The notes beneath the pieces are model-generated. The model saw only the letters and a list, made by a program, of their open reading frames with translations, searched no databases and was not told the origin of the DNA. A stretch of 55,835 nucleotides of DNA from an uncultured Alphaproteobacteria bacterium (GTDB lineage: Bacteria > Pseudomonadota > Alphaproteobacteria > Pelagibacterales > Pelagibacteraceae): contig CAIQAD010000049.1 of NCBI GenBank assembly GCA_903869725.1, positions 1 through 55,835 on the forward strand. Reading direction: 5' to 3'. Of this stretch, positions 385 to 35,808 are shown one piece after another. The translations under genes and the position numbers were made by a program. Numbering within the stretch: position 1 is the first letter of the stretch; the number at the start of each line of letters is the position of its first letter.

Positions 385-1212
385 ATGCAAAGTTTTCAAA
401 TTCTTATACCAGTTTATAACGATTGGAATTCATTATTAATTTTATTAGACAAAATTAATAAATTAGAAATTAATAAAATCTGCAATCTTAATGTATTAAT
501 AGTAGATGACGCCTCTACTGAAAACTTAAATCAAAAAATAACATTTTTATCTTTTAATAGTATTGAAATAATTAAAAATAAAAAAAATATTGGTCATGGA
601 AAAAGTATTGCTTATGGAATTAAATACTTAACAAATAAAAAAAACTTTGATTATCTTATAGTTATGGACGGTGATGGAGAAGACAGACCAGAGGAAGTAA
701 AAGAACTAATTTTAAAATCTTTAAAAACTAATAAAACTGTTACTGCAAATAGAATTAAAAGATCTGAAAGAATTCTATTTAGATTTTTATATCAATGTCA
801 CATAGTTCTAACCTATATTATTACCGGACGATTAATTAGATTTGGAAACTATATGTGTATGCCAAATAATCAGGCTAAATTATTAGCTAATAATATAAAT
901 ACAAATGTAAGTTTTTCAGGAACTGTAGAAAAATTTATTAAAAATAAGGATAGCATTCCATCTATTCGTGGTCTTCGCTATAAACAGCCAACAAAAATGA
1001 GTCTATTAAAGCTTATTAGACATTCATTATTAATTATTTCTATATTTAAAATTGAAGCCACGTTTAGAATTTTAGCAATTTTATTTTTAATTAATTTTAT
1101 TATAACTAAATTTGCACCTCAGCTTTTTGTTTTTATATTTTTTCCACTATTTATAATTAGCGCTATGCTAATCTTATCACTTTTTTATCTATACCAAAAA
1201 AATATTACTTAA
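385..1212 (+). CDS. Family 2 glycosyltransferase, membrane anchored
   Basis: A 275-residue GT-A fold glycosyltransferase. The N-terminus QILIPVYNDW and VDDAST are the nucleotide-sugar binding strands, NIGHGKSIAYGI is the usual conserved helix start, and MDGDGEDRPEE carries the D-x-D metal-binding motif. Two hydrophobic helices at about residues 225-243 and 247-272 anchor it to the inner membrane. It resembles dolichyl/undecaprenyl-phosphate sugar synthases in layout, but acceptor and sugar cannot be read from sequence. It starts 4 nt after the upstream ArnT-like gene and overlaps the end of the convergent reductase gene by 8 nt. Confidence 0.75.
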   Translation: MQSFQILIPVYNDWNSLLILLDKINKLEINKICNLNVLIVDDASTENLNQKITFLSFNSIEIIKNKKNIGHGKSIAYGIKYLTNKKNFDYLIVMDGDGEDRPEEVKELILKSLKTNKTVTANRIKRSERILFRFLYQCHIVLTYIITGRLIRFGNYMCMPNNQAKLLANNINTNVSFSGTVEKFIKNKDSIPSIRGLRYKQPTKMSLLKLIRHSLLIISIFKIEATFRILAILFLINFIITKFAPQLFVFIFFPLFIISAMLILSLFYLYQKNIT

Positions 1213-2224
1213 CTCCTAAAATTTTCTGAATTTTTGTTGATGAAGTAGTATACTGAAATACAAAGTTTTCATTTGGTCTTGCTCTTATAAAACATTCCTT
1301 AGCAGCTAATGCACCCTCATGAAATCCTGAAAGAATTAATTTTAATTTTCCAGGATACGTACAAATATCTCCTATTGCAAATATACCTTCATGATTCGTT
1401 TGAAAATTATGAGTGTTAACAACAATAGACTTCTCCTCCAAATTTAAACTCCAATCAGCAATAGGGCCGAGTTCCATTTTAAGTCCAAAAAATGCTATAA
1501 CTGAATTAATATCTAGTTGCTCAATTTTTCCATTATCATGCTGTATTTCTATGTTTTCTAACTTATCTTTGCCACGTAATTCTTTAAGTTGATAAAAAGT
1601 TTTAATCTCTATTTTATTAGTTTTTGAAATCTCTTTAACTTTATTTAAAGTATGAGGCGATCCTTTAAAATTATCTCTTCTATGAATTAAATATATTTTT
1701 TTTGCTATAGTAGATAATTCAACAGCCCAATCTAAAGCTGAGTCTCCTCCTCCAAAAATAGCTACTATTTCATCCGTAAATTGCGCTTTATCTTTAACAG
1801 AATAATAAAAACCTTTACCTTCAAATTTATTAATATCTTTTACTTCAGGCTTTCTTGGCTCAAAGGATCCAACGCCTCCTGCAATAATAATATTTGGAGT
1901 TTCAAAAATTTTATTGTCACTTGTAATAACTTGCCAAAGTTTATTTATTTTTTTAATCGTATTTACTCTTTGATTTAAATGAAATTGTTTTTTAAACGGC
2001 TTAATTTGCTCTAACAAATTATCAATTAAAGATTTGCCCGTACAATTAGGTAATCCTGGAATATCATAAATTGGTTTATCCGGATAAAGCTCTATACATT
2101 GTCCACCAATTTTATCTAAATTGTCAATAATATGACAATCAAGATTTAAAATACCAAGTTCAAAAACTGAAAATAAACCTACAGGTCCTGCTCCTATAAC
2201 TACAGCATCAGTTTTAATTGTCAT
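1205..2224 (-). CDS. Type-2 ferredoxin--NADP(+) reductase (thioredoxin-reductase-like)
   Basis: A 339-residue two-dinucleotide-fold flavoprotein. DAVVIGAGPVGLF near the N-terminus binds FAD, AIFGGGDSALDWA in the middle binds NADPH, and GIFAIGDICTYPG near the C-terminus is the second FAD-contact motif. The redox C-x-x-C of thioredoxin reductases is absent, which separates the FNR2 group from TrxB. Expected reaction: electron exchange between NADPH and ferredoxin. I place the start at the ATG 2 nt past the ferredoxin stop; a longer frame to 2293 would only overlap that gene with non-family residues. In cultivated SAR11 a similar reductase/ferredoxin pair lies next to proteorhodopsin, as it does here. 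Confidence 0.85.
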   Translation of the reverse strand: MTIKTDAVVIGAGPVGLFSVFELGILNLDCHIIDNLDKIGGQCIELYPDKPIYDIPGLPNCTGKSLIDNLLEQIKPFKKQFHLNQRVNTIKKINKLWQVITSDNKIFETPNIIIAGGVGSFEPRKPEVKDINKFEGKGFYYSVKDKAQFTDEIVAIFGGGDSALDWAVELSTIAKKIYLIHRRDNFKGSPHTLNKVKEISKTNKIEIKTFYQLKELRGKDKLENIEIQHDNGKIEQLDINSVIAFFGLKMELGPIADWSLNLEEKSIVVNTHNFQTNHEGIFAIGDICTYPGKLKLILSGFHEGALAAKECFIRARPNENFVFQYTTSSTKIQKILGVK

Positions 2225-2226
2225 CG

Positions 2227-2547
2227 TTATCCTTGTTTTTTTGGAAGTCTTACGATTATACCATCTAATTGATCTGTCATAGTAATCTGACAACTCAATC
2301 GACTATTATTTTTTAATTCAGTTACAAAATCTAACATGTCTCTCTCTGATTCTTGAATCTCTGGAAGTTTTTTTACCCAATTTTCATCTACATATACATG
2401 ACATGTTGCGCAAGCGCAGGAGCCTCCGCAATCAGCATCTATTCCTTTAATTGAATTTTGAATTGCTCCTTCCATAATTGAAAATCCTAATGGTAAATTG
2501 ATGGAATGTTCTTTACCTTCAAATTCGATATAAGTAACTTTTGGCAT
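2227..2547 (-). CDS. [2Fe-2S] ferredoxin, adrenodoxin type
   Basis: A 106-residue small iron-sulfur protein. DADCGGSCACATCH supplies the first three cluster ligands in the C-x5-C-x2-C spacing of adrenodoxin/putidaredoxin ferredoxins, and SRLSCQI near residue 92 provides the fourth. It starts with MPKVTYIEF, as this family usually does. It is the first gene of a two-gene unit with the reductase that begins 2 nt after its stop, so reductase and carrier are very likely co-translated. Physiological partners could be Fe-S cluster assembly, a P450 or a desaturase; none is encoded next to it. Confidence 0.88.
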   Translation of the reverse strand: MPKVTYIEFEGKEHSINLPLGFSIMEGAIQNSIKGIDADCGGSCACATCHVYVDENWVKKLPEIQESERDMLDFVTELKNNSRLSCQITMTDQLDGIIVRLPKKQG

Positions 2548-2583: not shown

Positions 2584-3576
2584 ATGTTTTTAAAATTACA
2601 ATTTATTAAAAAAGATTTTGAACTAAAAGAATCTTTTAAAATATCCCATCAAACAAAAACAATTATTAAAAGCATTATTATTAAGATTAACAACAATAAT
2701 AGTAGTGGTTTTGGGGAATGTATTCCTTATAAAAGATACGGCGAAAGTAGAGAAGCTATATTCACATATTTAAAGAATAATTATGATAAAATAATTCAAA
2801 ATATTAAAAATAATAAAATTAAAAACATAAAGTTTTTATCACTAAGAAATGCCATTGAGTCAGCCCTTATTCATTTAAATTTCAAAAAAATAAAATTTTA
2901 CAATAAAAGAATTACTGCAATTACATTGCCTATTGTAAATAAAAATAAATTATTAAGAAAAATAATTGAATTTAAAAATATACCTTTAATTAAAGTAAAA
3001 CTAAATGAACATAATGTTATCGATCATTTAAAATTAATTAAAAAAAATTGCCCTAAATCTAAAATTATAATTGATGCTAATGAAGGATGGAGATTTAACT
3101 TTTTAAAAAACATAATTCAACAATTAGAAAAGTTGAATGTAATTATGATAGAACAGCCTTTAAAATATGGACAAGATAAAAAATTATTAAAGATTAAAAC
3201 AAAAATATTGTTTTGTGCGGATGAATCTTTTCATGCAAATAACAAAAATAATATAATTAAATATTATAAAGTCTTTAATGTAAAATTAGATAAATTTGGA
3301 GGAATTCAAAATAGTTTAAAAATTATTAAAAATTTGAAGAAAAAAAATAAAAAAATATTTATTGGTTGTATGGTTAGTTCATCTTTATCTCTGGTGCCCG
3401 CCTTAACCCTTGCAAAATATTCTGATTTCTTAGATTTAGATGGTGCTTATTTTTTAAAAAAAGATTTTGAAAAAGGAATTTCTTATAAAAATGGAATTCT
3501 TTCTGTTAATAAAGATTTTTTATGGATTAATAAAAAAGGCTTACAAGAAAGTCTTGGAGGTCTTTTTAAAAATTAA
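2584..3576 (+). CDS. Dipeptide epimerase-like enolase superfamily protein
   Basis: A 330-residue muconate-lactonizing-subgroup enolase. LIKVKLNE carries the K-x-K catalytic pair, IIDANEGW the first metal-binding Asp, MIEQPL the Glu, CADESFH the third acidic ligand, and VKLDKFGGI the opposite-face Lys. GCMVSSSLSL and the DLDGAYFL segment near the C-terminus are characteristic of L-Ala-D/L-Glu epimerases, which recycle murein peptides. Specificity in this superfamily shifts easily, so the substrate is inferred. The gene is unusually Lys/Asn/Ile rich. It is transcribed divergently from the ferredoxin gene (36 nt apart) and runs convergently into the rhodopsin gene. Confidence 0.72.
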   Translation: MFLKLQFIKKDFELKESFKISHQTKTIIKSIIIKINNNNSSGFGECIPYKRYGESREAIFTYLKNNYDKIIQNIKNNKIKNIKFLSLRNAIESALIHLNFKKIKFYNKRITAITLPIVNKNKLLRKIIEFKNIPLIKVKLNEHNVIDHLKLIKKNCPKSKIIIDANEGWRFNFLKNIIQQLEKLNVIMIEQPLKYGQDKKLLKIKTKILFCADESFHANNKNNIIKYYKVFNVKLDKFGGIQNSLKIIKNLKKKNKKIFIGCMVSSSLSLVPALTLAKYSDFLDLDGAYFLKKDFEKGISYKNGILSVNKDFLWINKKGLQESLGGLFKN

Positions 3577-3597
3577 TTTTAAATTTTAATAATGTTT

Positions 3598-4290
3598 TCA
3601 AATTTCAGCTTTTTTATAAACAATAAAACTAAATAAAATTTTATTTACAAAATCAGATAGATTATAAATTATATTTATTGAATCCTCCGCTGTTGAACCC
3701 GCCATGTTTGCTAGTAAATAGCCTAATGGATAAACAGCCCAGCCGACAGTCACAATCCATTTACAAAGCATGTAACAAGTAGCAGAATCTCCAGATAAAC
3801 GAGACGCCTCTTTTCCAGCTTCGCCTGCAAAAATTTCATAAAGAACAAATATCCAACCTGACATTCCAATAATAAATGCAGGGTTAATATTTATATAACC
3901 ACTTTCTCCTAAAAACTGTCCAAAAAACATTACAAATGTTCCGCCAACTAATCTCCAAAGAATTGCTGCTGAAGTTCTTTTTGTTGAAGATAAAATAAAA
4001 TAAAATTGAGCTATTAATATAGGAGCTGTCAAAAACCAATCTATATATCGAAATAACACAGGTGCAGATCCTGTTGAAACCCATGATTGTCTTAAATATA
4101 AGTAATGAGCAAAACTTATACAGCTTACAACAAATAATAAAGTGATTGGTTTTCTCCAAAAATTTTTAATAGCTTTTCTTTCTAAAAATAAAAAAACTGC
4201 CATCCCTAAAACAGCCATCGATATAAGCCAAAAGGTTATTCCTGTAATATCACTAGCTTGTAAAAAATCGCTCGGTGTCTTAGTTGCCAT
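3598..4290 (-). CDS. Proteorhodopsin, D-T-Q variant
   Basis: A 230-residue seven-helix type-1 rhodopsin. Helix C reads RYIDWFLTAPILIAQFYF: R81, D84 (Schiff-base counterion/proton acceptor), T88, and Q95 where proton-pumping proteorhodopsins have the cytoplasmic donor Glu (E108). H62 in SFAHYLYLR matches the conserved His75. YNLSDFVNKILF in helix G holds the retinal-binding K217 and D213. The spectral-tuning position is L92, which predicts green absorption. There is no signal peptide: an in-frame stop lies 18 nt before the ATG, unlike many proteorhodopsins. The gene starts 25 nt after the phaA stop on the same strand, suggesting read-through from the PHB genes. No retinal or carotenoid genes are in the window. 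Most likely a light-driven proton pump with altered reprotonation. Confidence 0.95.
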   Translation of the reverse strand: MATKTPSDFLQASDITGITFWLISMAVLGMAVFLFLERKAIKNFWRKPITLLFVVSCISFAHYLYLRQSWVSTGSAPVLFRYIDWFLTAPILIAQFYFILSSTKRTSAAILWRLVGGTFVMFFGQFLGESGYININPAFIIGMSGWIFVLYEIFAGEAGKEASRLSGDSATCYMLCKWIVTVGWAVYPLGYLLANMAGSTAEDSINIIYNLSDFVNKILFSFIVYKKAEI

Positions 4291-4315
4291 TAAATTTATA
4301 TTTTTTATTTATAAA

Positions 4316-5512
4316 TTATTTATGATCAGCAAAGTTACGTTCTACGCACATTGCTATACCCATGCCACCACCAATACAAAGAGTGGCTAAACCTCTTTTA
4401 ACATGCAACTTTAACATTTCATGAATAAGTGTTACCAAAATTCTTGCACCTGATGCACCTATTGGATGACCCAAAGCAATAGCTCCACCGTTTACATTTA
4501 CTTTATCAACTGTCCATCCCATTTCTTTATTCACCGCAATTGCTTGCGCAGCAAAAGCTTCGTTTGCTTCTATTAAATCTAATTCATCTTCACCCCAGCC
4601 TGCTTTTTTAAGAGCTAAGCGGGACGCAGGAATTGGTCCTGTTCCCATAATAGAAGGATCTACTCCACACTGTGCCCAAGACACAATTTTAACTAAAGGC
4701 TCTAAACCTTTTTCTTTTGCAGTTTTGCCTGACATTAACAACAATGCAGCCGCACCATCATTTAATCCAGAGGCATTACCTGCCGTAACTGTACCGTCTT
4801 TTTTGAAAGCTGGTTTTAAAAGAGCTAATTTTTCAATTGTAGTTCCATCTTTAGGATATTCGTCACGATCAAAAATTACATCTTCTTTTTTAACTTTTAT
4901 AGTGACTGGCACAATTTCGTCTTTGAATTTCTTAGCTTTTATTGCATCAATTGCTTTTCTTTGAGAATGAGATGCAAAGCTATCCTGATCTTTTCTAGTA
5001 ATTTGAAATTTCTCAGCAACATTTTCTGCTGTAATTCCCATATGATATTGATTGTAAGAATCCCAAAGACCATCTACGATCATGCTATCTTGCAATTTAC
5101 CGTCACCCATTTTTACTCCATTTCGAATATTAATAAAATGAGGTGAATTACTCATGCTTTCTTGTCCACCAGCGATAATAATATTTCCATCTCCACACTT
5201 AATTGAATTATAAGCTAAAGCAACTGATGAAAGACCAGATCCGCAAACTTGATTTATAGTTGTTGCTGTTTTTTCGTAAGAGATGCCAGCACCGATTGCT
5301 GCCTGACGTGCAGGATTTTGTCCAACACCAGTAGTTAATACTTGGCCCATATAAGTCATATCAACTTCTTGTGATTTAATCTCAGAATGCTCAATACATT
5401 TTTTTATAACTGCAGATCCAAGTTGTGGAGCCGTAAGTCCAGATAAAGATCCTCCGAAAGATCCAACTGCAGTTCTAAATGCGCTCGTTATTACTATATC
5501 GTTATCGTTCAT
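4316..5512 (-). CDS. phaA: Acetyl-CoA C-acetyltransferase (beta-ketothiolase)
   Basis: A 398-residue biosynthetic thiolase condensing two acetyl-CoA to acetoacetyl-CoA, the first step of PHB synthesis. C90 in NQVCGSGLSS is the acyl-carrying nucleophile, H349 in ALGHPIGASGA and C379 in TLCIGGGMG complete the active site. Length is normal for the family (~393). It lies 31 nt downstream of phaB on the minus strand, and the proteorhodopsin gene follows it by 25 nt. Thiolases also serve beta-oxidation, but the phaB neighbour and the phaC/phaR/phaP cluster fix the role. Confidence 0.92.
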   Translation of the reverse strand: MNDNDIVITSAFRTAVGSFGGSLSGLTAPQLGSAVIKKCIEHSEIKSQEVDMTYMGQVLTTGVGQNPARQAAIGAGISYEKTATTINQVCGSGLSSVALAYNSIKCGDGNIIIAGGQESMSNSPHFINIRNGVKMGDGKLQDSMIVDGLWDSYNQYHMGITAENVAEKFQITRKDQDSFASHSQRKAIDAIKAKKFKDEIVPVTIKVKKEDVIFDRDEYPKDGTTIEKLALLKPAFKKDGTVTAGNASGLNDGAAALLLMSGKTAKEKGLEPLVKIVSWAQCGVDPSIMGTGPIPASRLALKKAGWGEDELDLIEANEAFAAQAIAVNKEMGWTVDKVNVNGGAIALGHPIGASGARILVTLIHEMLKLHVKRGLATLCIGGGMGIAMCVERNFADHK

Positions 5513-5543
5513 TACTATTTATTTCCTTTCGTGTTTATAAAAA

Positions 5544-6266
5544 CTATTGCATGTATTGGCCGCCGTTTATTGAAAAGGTAGCGCCCGTAATAAATCCAGC
5601 TGCGTCACTAGCTAAATAGCTAGCAAGATTTGCAATCTCGCTTGGCTCAGCTAATCTTCCAACTGGAATTTGTGCCACAATACCTTTTAAAATGGTAGGG
5701 TCAATTTTTTTTACCATGTCTGTACCTACATATCCAGGAGCAATGACATTTACTGTGATTCCTTTGTTTGCATTTTCTAACGCAAGAGCTTTTGAAAATC
5801 CTATAATTCCAGCTTTCGCAGCTGAGTAATTTGTTTGTCCAACTTGACCTTTAAGTCCATTAATAGAACTAATTGAAATAATTCTTCCATAGTTTTTCGC
5901 TCTCATTTTTTCAATAACATTTCTACAAATATTAAATAATGAGTTTAGATTAGTGTTTATGACCGCTTCCCATTCTTCTGAGTTCATTTTGTGCAAAAAT
6001 CTATCTTTGGTAATACCAGCATTGTTAACAACAACTTGAATATCGCCATATTTTTTTTCAACTTCTAAAATTCCAGTTTTGCAACTTTCAAAGTATCCTA
6101 CATCAAATTTTAAAACTTCAATTCCAGTTTTTTTTGAGAACTCTTGGGCAGGATCATCACGACCCACATACGTTGATACAACTGTCATGCCGTCTTGCTT
6201 AAGTTTTGCTGCAATTGCAGCGCCAATTCCTCGGGTTCCTCCAGTAATTAAAGCAACTTTAGACAT
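5544..6266 (-). CDS. phaB: Acetoacetyl-CoA reductase
   Basis: A 240-residue short-chain dehydrogenase. TGGTRGIG near residue 8 binds the NADPH cofactor, NNAGIT at 81-86 is the second conserved SDR motif, and S134, Y147 and K151 (in QTNYSAAKAG) are the catalytic residues. It reduces acetoacetyl-CoA to (R)-3-hydroxybutyryl-CoA, the PhaC substrate. FabG proteins look alike, but the position directly before the ketothiolase makes PhaB the better call. It is the first gene of a probable phaB-phaA-rhodopsin transcript. Only a weak -10-like TATATT (minus strand, 6294-6299) is seen upstream, just beyond the phaP hairpin. Confidence 0.88.
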   Translation of the reverse strand: MSKVALITGGTRGIGAAIAAKLKQDGMTVVSTYVGRDDPAQEFSKKTGIEVLKFDVGYFESCKTGILEVEKKYGDIQVVVNNAGITKDRFLHKMNSEEWEAVINTNLNSLFNICRNVIEKMRAKNYGRIISISSINGLKGQVGQTNYSAAKAGIIGFSKALALENANKGITVNVIAPGYVGTDMVKKIDPTILKGIVAQIPVGRLAEPSEIANLASYLASDAAGFITGATFSINGGQYMQ

Positions 6267-6314
6267 TATTAGAAACTATTTTTTTTTCTTAAAAATATAC
6301 TAGATATAAATGAA

Positions 6315-6370
6315 AAACTAGAGAAATTTAGCTAAAATTAAAGGGGAATTAGCTAAATATTCTCTAGTTT
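6315..6370 (-). terminator. Long hairpin, probable phaP terminator
   Basis: The arms at 6315-6335 and 6349-6370 are complementary over about 21 bp with a single one-base bulge, around a 13-nt loop containing GGGG on the plus strand. On the minus strand the stem is followed by TTTTTCA, as in an intrinsic terminator for phaP, which ends 14 nt earlier. The stem is A+T-rich but very long. It separates the abundant phasin message from phaB-phaA downstream; partial read-through could give graded expression. Confidence 0.6.
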
Positions 6371-6383
6371 AATAAAATTCAAA

Positions 6384-6833
6384 TTAATTTTTTGAATTTG
6401 CAGAATTTTCTTCTACTGATTTCTTAATTTCAGTTAAACCTTCTAAAAGTCTTTTGTTTAAAATCTCAAAAGATTCTTTAGCAGTTTTTTCTGCAATTTT
6501 AGAAAATTCAGATGCTATATTTTGAGCTTCTACGATTGCTGTTTGTGTCAATTCGATAGATTTAGCAACTGATTGCTGAGGATTTCCCTTAGCTATTTCA
6601 GATGTAGCATCTTTTGCGTTAGAGATTGCTTTATTTAATACTTCGATTTGTTTTTTTGCTAATAAATTGTAGCCTTCAAACAATACTTTAGAAGCATTAG
6701 CTAAAGTTTCTAACGTTTTTTTCTGAGAGTTAATTAAACCTTCAGAGTTAGCATTAAAAGTTGGAGCTTTTAAAGCTGATAAAATCTTTTGAAAATCAAA
6801 GATTTCAAAAGGGTTATTGTAGTTAGCCATCAT
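6384..6833 (-). CDS. phaP: Phasin (PHB granule-associated protein)
   Basis: A 149-residue amphipathic, mostly helical protein rich in Ala, Lys, Glu and Ser, with no Cys. The N-terminal NPFEIFDFQKIL and the following long heptad-like helices (LANASKVLFEGYNLLAKK, then AQNIASEFSKIAEKTAKE) match the phasin_2 family that coats PHB granules. A strong AAGGAG ribosome site, rare in this A+T-rich window, precedes the ATGATG start, as expected for an abundant structural protein. It is divergent from phaC with a shared 197-nt regulatory region and appears monocistronic because of the hairpin after its stop. Confidence 0.85.
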   Translation of the reverse strand: MMANYNNPFEIFDFQKILSALKAPTFNANSEGLINSQKKTLETLANASKVLFEGYNLLAKKQIEVLNKAISNAKDATSEIAKGNPQQSVAKSIELTQTAIVEAQNIASEFSKIAEKTAKESFEILNKRLLEGLTEIKKSVEENSANSKN

Positions 6834-6839
6834 TGTTTA

Positions 6840-6845
6840 CTCCTT
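6840..6845 (-). promoter_or_regulatory. Strong Shine-Dalgarno site of phaP
   Basis: The minus strand reads AAGGAG six nt before the first of two tandem ATG codons (6833) and nine nt before the second (6830). Most genes in this window have no recognisable Shine-Dalgarno sequence, so this one stands out and suggests high translation of phasin. Confidence 0.75.
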
Positions 6846-6864
6846 GTTTATTATTTATGGTACC

Positions 6865-6893
6865 TATATATGTTGCGCTGCAATATAATACAA
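6865..6893 (-). promoter_or_regulatory. Putative phaP promoter
   Basis: On the minus strand TTGTAT (6888-6893) and TATATA (6865-6870) are separated by exactly 17 nt. Transcription would start near 6858, giving a 5' leader of about 25 nt that holds the AAGGAG site. The spacer contains the TTGC-N3-GCAA palindrome, placing a repressor where it would block RNA polymerase. Confidence 0.55.
6873..6883. promoter_or_regulatory. Putative PhaR operator 1 (TTGC-N3-GCAA)
   Basis: TTGCGCTGCAA is an inverted repeat of TTGC/GCAA with a 3-nt centre. It lies between the -35 and -10 boxes of the putative phaP promoter. PhaR of other bacteria, for example Paracoccus, is known to bind TGC-rich inverted repeats of the CTGC-N3/4-GCAG kind, and a phaR gene lies 2 kb away, so repression of phaP is inferred. 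Confidence 0.55.
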
Positions 6894-6945
6894 GTAGTAA
6901 ATATCAATATTTATATAAACTGTTGTTTTATATGCATTTTTAATT

Positions 6946-6979
6946 TTGCATTTGCAATATTTTAATGTTGCAAAAGCAT
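6946..6979. promoter_or_regulatory. Putative PhaR operators 2 and 3
   Basis: TTGC-ATTT-GCAA (6946-6957) is a second perfect half-site pair with a 4-nt centre, and TTGC-AAAA-GCAT (6968-6979) is a near-perfect third, centred 22 bp away (about two helical turns, same face). The third abuts TATACT (6979-6984), a possible phaC -10 box, although no good -35 is visible. Together with operator 1 they suggest coordinate PhaR control of phaP and phaC. Confidence 0.48.
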
Positions 6980-7030
6980 ATACTCATTATTACCCTATGA
7001 CTAAATATAAGCTATTATTAAATTTTTAAA

Positions 7031-8893
7031 ATGTCAGAAAAAGAAAAAAATAACGATTCAGCTAAAATTAATTTTGAAGATTTAAGCACTATTTTCGAAA
7101 GTAATCTTAAAATTTATAACCAATATTTAGAATCTTTCAAAAATTTAGGCGTAAACCAAAGCAACATTTCTCCTTTTAATTTCAATAATCAAGGTAGTAA
7201 AAATTTTACAATAAACGATCTTTCAAACTTAATAGCGCCAACAATTACTAAAATGATGGAATCTTTTAAAAGCTTTTCAACTGAAATTCAGCAAAATCCT
7301 AATATTTATTTTGATCATTTGAATCGATGGATTTCTCAAATTGCAAATTTAAACTTTTATTTTATAACACGGGCATCAGGAGGAATAGCCAACCCGGTTA
7401 TTTTAGAAGAAAAAACTGATAAGAGATTTTCTAATGAAGAATGGAAAAGCAATTTATTTTTTGATTTCATAAAACAATTTTATTTAATAAGTACAAATTT
7501 TTTAAGTAATCTAATTGAGAATGTAGAATTTAAAAATCCTAAAGATAAACGCTTAATGCAATTTTATTTAAAGCAATTAAATAGTGCATTATCTCCTTCA
7601 AATTTTGTATTTACTAATCCAGAGGTTTTAAAAAGAACAATTGAAGAAAAAGGAAATAATTTAAATAAGGGTTATGAAAATTATAGAAAAGATTTTGAAA
7701 AACATCCCAATAAACTATTTATACAACAGTCTAAAGATGGTGGATTTGAAGTTGGAAAAAATTTAGCGACAACAAAAGGTAAAGTAATTTTTAAAAATAA
7801 TTTATTTGAATTAATTCAATATGATTGTGCAACAGACAAGCAATATTCTAAACCGATGCTCGTTATACCGCCTTTTATAAATAAATATTACATTATGGAT
7901 TTAAATGAAAAAAAATCTATGATGAAATTTTTAGTTGATAATAAATTTAATACTTTCTTAATTTCTTGGAAAAATCCTGATAGCAATTCCAGAAATCTAT
8001 CTTTTAAAGAGTACATTGAATCAGGAATATTAGAGGCTATAAAAGTGACTTGCGAACAAACAGGATCTTTAAGCATTAATATTGCTTCTTATTGTGTTGG
8101 TGGAACACTAGCTTCGCTTACCCTAGCTTATATTAAAAATATTCCTAGCAAATATAAAATCACTAGCGCAACTTATTTTGCAAGTTTAATTGACTTTGAA
8201 GATCCAGGTGAAATTGGGGTATTTATTACAGAAGAACAAATAAAAAGTATTGAAGAGCAAATGAAAAAAACTGGCTACTTTGATGGAAAAGATATGGCAG
8301 CAGCTTTTAACTTTTTAAGACCTGGGGATTTGTATTGGAATTACGTTGTAAATAACTACTTATTAGGTAACGAACCCACAGCATTTGATATGCTTCACTG
8401 GAATTCAGATTCAACAAGACTTCCAGAAAAAATGCATTCTGAATACTTACGCTGCATGTATTTAAATAATTTAGTTGTTAAAAATATGTACAAAATTGGT
8501 GATGTAGAAATAGATCTTTCAAAAATTGACACCCCAATGTTTTCAGTAGCAACAACCGAAGATCATATAGCCCCTTGGAGATCAGTGTATCAAGGATTAG
8601 GCTATTATAATTCACATATTAATTTTGTACTTTCTAATTCAGGTCATATTGCAGGCATTATTCAAGGAGTAGAAAATAAACCTGGTAAGCTTTATTATTA
8701 TTCTGCAAAATTTGAAAAAAATAAAAATCCAGATGAGTGGTATACTGTTGCTAAAAAATTTGATGGTTCTTGGTGGCAAACTTGGTCTAGTTGGCTTGCT
8801 ATATACTCAGGTGAACTAAAAAAACCATCTGAGCTAAATAGAAAAGTTTACGAGACATTATATGAAGCTCCAGGAAAATATGTTAGAGAATAA
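7031..8893 (+). CDS. phaC: Class I poly(3-hydroxyalkanoate) synthase
   Basis: A 620-residue PHB polymerase, near the usual 560-600 of class I enzymes, with an N-terminal helical domain (residues ~1-200) and a C-terminal alpha/beta-hydrolase domain. The catalytic triad is visible as C355 in ASYCVGGTLAS, D511 in TTEDHIAPW and H539 in NSGHIAG. The lipase-like box has Ser instead of the first Gly of G-x-C-x-G. FDMLHWNSDSTRLP is a typical family segment. The enzyme polymerises (R)-3-hydroxybutyryl-CoA on the granule surface. Its stop directly abuts the phaR start, so the two are coupled. Confidence 0.95.
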   Translation: MSEKEKNNDSAKINFEDLSTIFESNLKIYNQYLESFKNLGVNQSNISPFNFNNQGSKNFTINDLSNLIAPTITKMMESFKSFSTEIQQNPNIYFDHLNRWISQIANLNFYFITRASGGIANPVILEEKTDKRFSNEEWKSNLFFDFIKQFYLISTNFLSNLIENVEFKNPKDKRLMQFYLKQLNSALSPSNFVFTNPEVLKRTIEEKGNNLNKGYENYRKDFEKHPNKLFIQQSKDGGFEVGKNLATTKGKVIFKNNLFELIQYDCATDKQYSKPMLVIPPFINKYYIMDLNEKKSMMKFLVDNKFNTFLISWKNPDSNSRNLSFKEYIESGILEAIKVTCEQTGSLSINIASYCVGGTLASLTLAYIKNIPSKYKITSATYFASLIDFEDPGEIGVFITEEQIKSIEEQMKKTGYFDGKDMAAAFNFLRPGDLYWNYVVNNYLLGNEPTAFDMLHWNSDSTRLPEKMHSEYLRCMYLNNLVVKNMYKIGDVEIDLSKIDTPMFSVATTEDHIAPWRSVYQGLGYYNSHINFVLSNSGHIAGIIQGVENKPGKLYYYSAKFEKNKNPDEWYTVAKKFDGSWWQTWSSWLAIYSGELKKPSELNRKVYETLYEAPGKYVRE

Positions 8894-9367
8894 ATGATAG
8901 AAATTAAAAAATATTCAAACAGAAGATTATATAATACCGAAACTAGTGCTTACATCACTCTTGATGACATTGTAATATTAATAAAAAAAGAGTTAGATTT
9001 TAAAGTTACAGATGTAGATACTCAAGCTGACATCACTTCTACTATTTTAACTCAAATTATTTTAGAGAAAGAAAGTGCTGGTGTTAATCTTATTCCAGTT
9101 CATATTCTAAAACAAATTATTTTATTTAATGAAAATAAAAAAGGAAACATGATGTTTGATTATCTAACTAATATCATGAATGTGGCAAATACAAATAATT
9201 TTTTTACTAAAACATTTCCAAATTTTACTGATTTTAATTTTTTTAATTTTGGGCAAAAAACCGAACAAAAATCAACTCAATCTAATGAAAGTAAAAATAT
9301 TGACGATTTAGTATCTCAGATTGATATTCTTAAAAAAGAAATCCAAGAAATAAAAAAACAAAAATAA
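8894..9367 (+). CDS. phaR: PHB synthesis repressor / granule sensor
   Basis: A 157-residue protein whose first ~60 residues (IKKYSNRRLYNTETSAYITL) are the diagnostic PHB/PHA accumulation regulator DNA-binding domain; a second PHB-accumulation domain follows (ILKQIILFNENKKGNMMFDYL), then a Phe/Asn-rich stretch and a coiled-coil-like tail. Known PhaR proteins bind both nascent PHB and operators upstream of phaP and phaR, releasing repression when polymer appears. The start ATG follows the phaC stop with no gap. TTGC-N3/4-GCAA elements in the phaP-phaC region are its likely targets. Confidence 0.92.
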   Translation: MIEIKKYSNRRLYNTETSAYITLDDIVILIKKELDFKVTDVDTQADITSTILTQIILEKESAGVNLIPVHILKQIILFNENKKGNMMFDYLTNIMNVANTNNFFTKTFPNFTDFNFFNFGQKTEQKSTQSNESKNIDDLVSQIDILKKEIQEIKKQK

Positions 9368-35178: not shown

Positions 35179-35808
35179 ATGGTCTTACTCAAAGACAATC
35201 CTAACAATAATAACAAACCTATTATTACTTATTATATTATAACAATTAGTATTATTGTTTTTTTAATTCAACTAACTCTTCCAGGAAATACTTCCGGAGA
35301 ATTATATTATACTTTTGGATTAATTCCTTCTAAGTTACTTGGAAAGGTTTTCCCTGAACAATTAAATAAAATAAATCCTTATCTAACTTTTTTTACTTCA
35401 ATATTTTTACATGTAGGTTTTTTACATCTGTTATTTAATATGTCTTATCTTTGGATTTTTGGAAGAAAAGTTGAATATAAAATAGGAAAATTAAAATTTG
35501 CAATAAGTTATTTTGTATATGCAATTATAACAGGTATTGTTCAAATTTTATTTGGGTTTAGCTATAATCTTCCAATGATTGGCGCAGATGGTGCCATTAG
35601 TGGATTACTTGGCGCTTATATTATTGAATATCCTAAAAAAACTAAGAGTTATTATTCTATAGCTTTCTGGTTTATATTTCAGTTCATTGTCGATCAAGCC
35701 AGATACAATTTAAATGGAGAAATTGATTACGGTGTAAAAATGTACACTTTCATATTTGCGGCTTTTATTACTTTTGCTTTTAAGAGATTAACTTATCCAC
35801 AAAAATAA
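35179..35808 (+). CDS. Rhomboid-fold membrane protein without catalytic residues
   Basis: A 209-residue protein with about six membrane helices. FLHVGFLHLLFNMSYLWIFG is the H-x4-H-x3-N signature of rhomboid helix 2. In helix 4, where active proteases have G-x-S-G-A-x-x-G, this protein has GADGAISGLLGAY, with D137 in place of the nucleophile Ser. The last helix (YTFIFAAFITFAF) has no A-H-x-x-G, so the catalytic His is missing too. It should therefore be a non-proteolytic pseudo-rhomboid, possibly a membrane-protein chaperone or binding factor. It lies 3 nt after aroC but has no evident link to it. Confidence 0.8.
   Translation: MVLLKDNPNNNNKPIITYYIITISIIVFLIQLTLPGNTSGELYYTFGLIPSKLLGKVFPEQLNKINPYLTFFTSIFLHVGFLHLLFNMSYLWIFGRKVEYKIGKLKFAISYFVYAIITGIVQILFGFSYNLPMIGADGAISGLLGAYIIEYPKKTKSYYSIAFWFIFQFIVDQARYNLNGEIDYGVKMYTFIFAAFITFAFKRLTYPQK

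Follow-up and report, generated by a model that had tools for sequence, protein, structure and literature searches.

The 55,835-nucleotide stretch of DNA analysed here (the window) carries a proteo-opsin gene that is probably a vertically inherited proteorhodopsin of the freshwater SAR11 lineage Ca. Fonsibacter (LD12), left without its pigment pathway and persisting as an apo-opsin, most likely without retinal. Gene losses (within the limits of the assembly), a changed locus, a raised evolutionary rate, altered residues and an intact reading frame are observed here, and from them we infer that the cell makes no retinal, that the protein does not pump and that it is retained for another role. 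This pigment-less context is more interesting than the glutamine at the proton-donor position that the preliminary description had singled out.

The window forms contig 49 in a Ca. Fonsibacter genome of 1.08 Mb (G000; 55 contigs, 96.8% complete) that contains one rhodopsin. Its congeners include Ca. Fonsibacter sp. ZLKRG47, Ca. Fonsibacter sp. Baikal-deep-G36 (G019) and the single cells SCGC AAA028-C07 and AAA028-D10; genome G005 we take to be strain LSUCC0530.

An intact opsin gene with glutamine at the proton-donor position

The gene is a microbial (type I) rhodopsin by profile match (PF01036, 103.7 bits against a cut-off of 24.6), while no NCBIfam model matched it. Residues were placed by alignment with green proteorhodopsin (PR):

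3598..4290, minus strand: proteo-opsin gene, 230 aa, intact frame, without signal peptide, DTQ motif, L at the tuning site
4039..4041, minus strand: D84, codon GAT, equivalent to PR D97, Schiff-base counterion and proton acceptor, kept
4027..4029, minus strand: T88, codon ACA, equivalent to PR T101, kept
4015..4017, minus strand: L92, codon TTA, equivalent to PR L105, green-tuned
4006..4008, minus strand: Q95, codon CAA, at the PR E108 proton-donor position
3652..3654, minus strand: D213, codon GAT, equivalent to PR D227
3640..3642, minus strand: K217, codon AAA, equivalent to PR K231, retinal-binding lysine of helix G, kept

The preliminary description had read a D-T-Q motif with Gln95 at PR E108 next to retained D84, T88 and K217, and both the codons and the alignment bear this out; the carboxylate donor expected at PR 108 of a DTE proton-pumping proteorhodopsin is absent. 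Its statement that this substitution slows reprotonation also agrees with the literature, in which PR-E108Q is a donor-disabled mutant with slow M decay and faint pumping expected (Sasaki et al. 2021, PMC8387761). The motif is, however, not the novelty it was taken for, since Olson et al. (2018, PMC5864233) had already described SAR11 DTQ-Q and DTQ-L rhodopsins from the deep North Pacific, and the mutant results of Sasaki et al. describe the same substitution. A sodium (NDQ) or chloride (NTQ) pump was rejected because PR position 97 is D84 and not Asn. The suggestion that another residue serves as donor found no footing either, as a listing of the Asp and Glu residues of the window opsin turned up none that is new and lies in the membrane close to Q95.

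The reported lack of a signal peptide is real, but it is no peculiarity of this protein. Only six codons are open 5' of the ATG, so no signal peptide has been overlooked through a missed upstream start, and the rhodopsins of the clade, including those of the nearest genera, also lack one. An assembly or sequencing error at the Gln codon had been raised as well; the relatives do mostly carry Glu, yet 40 sites that are invariant in the 17 other sequences are changed too and the frame is intact, so a single erroneous codon is not a sensible explanation. The best reading is that the window opsin is neither an assembly error nor a new class of pump.

Distribution of the glutamine among SAR11 genomes

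Glu occupies the PR E108 position in 16 of 17 aligned SAR11 relatives, G019 being the exception. The idea that Gln might be fixed in a clade was therefore not upheld, as the congeners carry Glu with that one exception, and the window and G019 are not sisters in a tree of the neighbouring genes. Of 397 Pelagibacteraceae genomes, five matched a strict degenerate DNA pattern for the Gln form (the window genome, G019, two of genus g6 and one of genus g13), and CAA is the codon in all five. A fully supported branch of the neighbour-gene tree parts the window from G019, and the g6 and g13 proteins belong to other genera and have a signal peptide (with a ferredoxin gene nearby), so their Gln is independent of that in the window; taken together, the sequences suggest that Gln at the donor site most likely arose at least three times. 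A free tree of the rhodopsins fits better than the neighbour-gene topology and weakly groups the window with G019, as would be expected if both had lost the same constraint.

The G019 gene (L110, 15104-15790, minus strand) is the second DTQ rhodopsin of the genus and lacks four residues close to where helix F ends. This genome comes from deep Lake Baikal, and its contig label, BA1350, suggests a depth of 1350 m. The two g6 DTQ rhodopsins (L261, 9639-10394; L262, 9672-10445) lack the Tyr at PR Y76, and one has Lys in place of R94.

No detectable carotenoid and retinal synthesis genes

An own retinal supply (crtB, crtI, crtY, blh) is usual for DTE proton-pumping proteorhodopsins, although it does not strictly define them. 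Searches for these four genes gave no match anywhere in G000 (96.8% complete), while congeners matched in the same searches: blh was found in 9, crtB in 11, crtI in 12 and crtY in 11 of the 13 genomes of the genus, a set that includes G000 itself. The crtI-crtB-crtY-blh cluster adjoins the opsin divergently in most of the genus; in G059 it sits on a contig apart from the opsin. With 55 contigs and 96.8% completeness, a single missing crt-blh block of ~5 kb might have been lost in assembly or binning.

Across 58 genomes, blh was detectable in 0 of 5 DTQ genomes versus 46 of 53 others (p = 1.7e-4), and in 0 of 3 versus 46 of 50 (p = 1.5e-3) when lineages were counted once and G019 was dropped, the g6 and g13 genomes in this comparison being only 63-83% complete. 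In G019, crtI, crtB and at least a part of crtY are present, and the contig ends inside crtY before any blh, so the blh call for this genome is undecided. Apart from this case, the pattern suggests that a DTQ motif without the donor is, in SAR11 genomes, a sign of lost retinal synthesis and not of a new ion pump. With depth, blh and crtY became scarce in the data of Olson et al. (2018, PMC5864233), and other bacteria that lack blh make retinal nonetheless or may obtain it by scavenging (PMC7734400, PMC11322631).

blh was detectable in none of the five g6 genomes. In G076, another genome of the genus of the window (L163, 12387-13222), it appears as two overlapping pieces in different frames, possibly a frameshifted blh.

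A rearranged locus

The surroundings of the opsin are as follows:

1205..2293, minus strand: pyridine-nucleotide-disulphide oxidoreductase, conserved neighbour
2227..2547, minus strand: 2Fe-2S ferredoxin, conserved neighbour
2584..3576, plus strand: dipeptide epimerase-like gene, downstream neighbour of the opsin, conserved in the genus
4291..4315, minus strand: 25-bp gap from the phaA stop to the opsin start, no Shine-Dalgarno sequence
4316..5512, minus strand: phaA, acetyl-CoA acetyltransferase, directly upstream of and co-directional with the opsin
5544..6266, minus strand: phaB, acetoacetyl-CoA reductase, first gene of the phaB-phaA-opsin run

Synteny with the epimerase, ferredoxin and oxidoreductase genes, together with congeners as the closest relatives, identifies the window opsin as the ortholog of the LD12 proteorhodopsin. 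The gene order is epimerase-opsin-ACSS3-phaA in G059 and the g12 genomes versus epimerase-opsin-phaA in the window, and the remaining ACSS3-like matches in G000 are at most 39% identical. The window opsin has lost its divergently transcribed ACSS3-like neighbour and the spacer between them, and therefore now lies 25 bp behind phaA on the same strand. The 12 orthologs checked are each preceded by a G-rich ribosome-binding site (GGGGA, GGGAG, GGGAT or GGAG), which the window opsin lacks. A promoter scan of positions 3400-7100 returned sites no more numerous than in shuffled sequence. Judging by this layout, the opsin may be co-transcribed with phaB and phaA, and in a relative the pha genes of LD12 are known to function (PMC12113158).

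The pha cluster (4316-9367) adjoins the opsin in the window; in G059 and the g12 genomes its neighbours are ACSS3 and the opsin, but in G005 it lies at 67529-72625 of contig C1 (L035). It has thus moved within the genus.

Accelerated evolution with remaining constraint

The window rhodopsin is 60% identical to that of G005 and 57% to that of G009, which are 83% identical to each other, whereas nearly all other window genes show the reverse order of identities, as expected of congeners. In this relative-rate table, 27 of 30 comparable genes follow the normal order, the exceptions being the opsin, a rhomboid and one weak case, which speaks against acceleration of the whole genome. On the neighbour-gene topology, the window branch measures 0.758 for the opsin versus 0.241 for the neighbours, 8.0 times the ratio of other branches, and none of nine neighbour genes had an excess comparable to the opsin's. 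Out of 125 columns that are invariant in the other 17 sequences, 40 are changed in the window opsin.

Such change might signify a decaying gene, on its way out after pigment loss and not yet broken by a stop or deletion. The lost ribosome-binding site and upstream region and the accelerated substitution agree with decay, and so does the 4-aa deletion that accompanies Gln in the Lake Baikal relative. We nevertheless consider it somewhat unlikely. The window opsin contains no stop codon, whereas an intact ortholog mutated at random until it is equally diverged acquires 7-8, with zero in none of 400 runs and in fewer than 1% of runs at half the divergence. The changes also spare the Schiff-base cluster, and the AlphaFold model shows seven helices in a confidently predicted bundle (pLDDT 88.9), with TM 0.88-0.90 to proteorhodopsin and to PsFAR, a flotillin-associated rhodopsin, and is also close to retinal-free proteo-opsin. 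Zero stops and a confident model therefore indicate that some constraint on the protein remained.

The only other strong outlier in the table, a rhomboid-family protein (35179-35808, plus strand), reads GADG in place of GASG and has lost the His of AHIGG, both of which G005 and G009 keep. It is a dead protease with an intact frame. As a second membrane protein of the window with dead catalytic residues it adds to the case for decay, and the persistence of the opsin frame may therefore reflect the lineage and not a new function.

Changes in the retinal pocket and helix B

Three replacements concern the retinal pocket and the helix B site facing the donor:

4132..4137, minus strand: L52-F53, replacing PR S65-G66 (BR T46-T47), helix B site facing the donor
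4024..4026, minus strand: A89, replacing PR V102, retinal pocket; His (H84) in PsFAR
3916..3918, minus strand: Q125, replacing PR G138 (BR G122), retinal pocket; Glu (E120) in PsFAR

In PR numbering, helix B bears S61P, S65L and G66F, and the pocket A72S, V102A, L135F, G138Q and G151A, while the Schiff-base cluster is intact (R94, D97, W98, T101, W197, Y200, P201, D227, K231). Changes affect 6 of 27 retinal-pocket residues versus 93 of 226 residues overall (p = 0.025), and PsFAR keeps most of its pocket too.

PsFAR (9r21) is the best PDB sequence match of the window opsin. Where columns are conserved, the window opsin differs preferentially at the positions at which PsFAR differs too (OR 3.2, p = 8e-4); the same test on 19 other members of the proteorhodopsin family gave at most OR 1.9 (p = 0.04), for G029, another DTQ protein. 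The likeness of the pockets is partial, with G138Q at the E120 site but V102A where PsFAR has His. We read the PsFAR H84V/E120G double mutant (PDB 9r23) as an attempt at reopening the pocket, and FArhodopsins have been proposed to be retinal-less (PMC10308929).

These residues also bear on the view that the protein is a working slow proton pump or light sensor, supplied with retinal scavenged from other plankton, in which loss of the Glu lengthens the photocycle. K217, D84, R81, D213, H62 and most retinal contacts are kept, a SAR11 DTQ-Q rhodopsin pumps protons in E. coli with added retinal (PMC5864233), and PR-E108Q still cycles, if slowly. In addition, a blh-lacking actinobacterium has a functional rhodopsin, and retinal-free proteo-opsin, which holds decanoate in its pocket, can accept retinal, the basis of a proposed scavenging route (PMC11322631). 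Set against this, G138Q, V102A, L135F, A72S and the lost Shine-Dalgarno sequence are unlike a retained pump, as are the 8-fold rate and the 40 changed invariant sites, and no recognisable transducer stands among the identified neighbours (ferredoxin, oxidoreductase, epimerase and pha genes). A working pump or sensor is in our judgement unlikely, and with Q95, L52 and Q125 any pumping would be slow or weak.

Assembly loss and horizontal transfer

If the pigment genes had merely been lost in assembly, the opsin would be an ordinary pump with an odd residue. The 55 contigs, the 3.2% incompleteness and the separate contig of the G059 crt cluster lend this some room, but it does not explain why the rate is 8-fold, why the pocket and helix B are altered and why the ribosome-binding site is missing, and we regard it as improbable. 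Horizontal replacement by a divergent rhodopsin, whose long branch would be foreign instead of accelerated, is very improbable: identity to congeners is only ~60% and the best PDB match is a flotillin-associated rhodopsin, but the gene holds the same syntenic position, keeps lineage-specific stretches such as SDITGITFWLISMA and CKWIVT, and shares 56-62% identity with congeners against at most 45% with any rhodopsin found outside the SAR11 set.

A possible course of events

For an LD12 proteorhodopsin that became a pigment-less apo-opsin, the following course can be proposed. Loss of crtI, crtB, crtY and blh would have left a cell that makes no retinal, in which the opsin could therefore not act as an autonomous light pump. 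Selection for pumping would then have relaxed. The opsin changed about 8-fold faster than the neighbouring genes and gave up the Glu donor, the Ser that partners it in helix B and the pocket Gly, while Lys217, the counterions, the seven-helix fold and the unbroken frame were retained. The E95Q replacement would thus be a consequence of this shift and not the cause of a new pumping mode, and the resulting apo-opsin state may be convergent with that of flotillin-associated rhodopsins. The pump of the window probably no longer runs on light by itself; alternatively, it is at best a slow pump on scavenged retinal. The decanoate of retinal-free proteo-opsin and the scavenging proposal make another ligand, or scavenged retinal, possible in the window opsin pocket.

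Several observations count against an opsin without retinal. The retinal Lys and most pocket residues are intact, DTQ-Q does pump when retinal is provided, and G019 has Gln although crtI, crtB and some or all of crtY are still there. More speculatively, the protein could be a retinal-less seven-helix protein that took on a new, light-independent role at its original locus once retinal synthesis was lost. This would be an independent rerun of the change behind flotillin-associated rhodopsins, and the protein might bind a ligand resembling a fatty acid and be expressed together with the genes for polyhydroxybutyrate synthesis.

The known retinal-less microbial rhodopsins are finished products, whereas the window locus looks like an intermediate. 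Its intact sister genomes allow the comparison of a state in which pigment genes and regulation are lost and the donor and pocket altered while the frame is kept, and make the role of an opsin without pigment directly testable.

Comparison with known rhodopsins

The proteorhodopsins of Ca. Fonsibacter (LD12) and of two related SAR11 genera, g9 and g12, resemble the window opsin in synteny, fold, the lack of a signal peptide, L at the tuning site and the retained D, T and K. The window opsin departs from them in its Gln donor, its 40 changed invariant sites, the absence of pigment genes and of a Shine-Dalgarno sequence, and its placement behind phaA.

The SAR11 DTQ-Q and DTQ-L rhodopsins (PMC5864233; here G006, G029 and G013) share the motif, the CAA codon and the lack of a detected blh. 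Unlike the window opsin, the g6 and g13 forms carry a signal peptide and come from different genera, and the DTQ-Q protein tested by Olson et al. pumps when given retinal. The laboratory mutant PR-E108Q (PMC8387761) has the same substitution, but there it is the sole change, and the pump, with its retinal, is otherwise intact.

FArhodopsins (PMC10308929; PsFAR, 9r21 and 9r23) also lack a signal peptide, have lost the donor and have diverged at the same sites, and PsFAR shares the bulky polar residue at PR G138 as well as S65L, A72S and Y208N. They differ in being a second paralog in genomes that also have a normal proteorhodopsin, in lying next to a flotillin gene and in carrying DTT, DTL or DNI motifs, whereas the window opsin, with its DTQ motif, is the only rhodopsin of its genome and stands at the ordinary locus among other identified neighbours.
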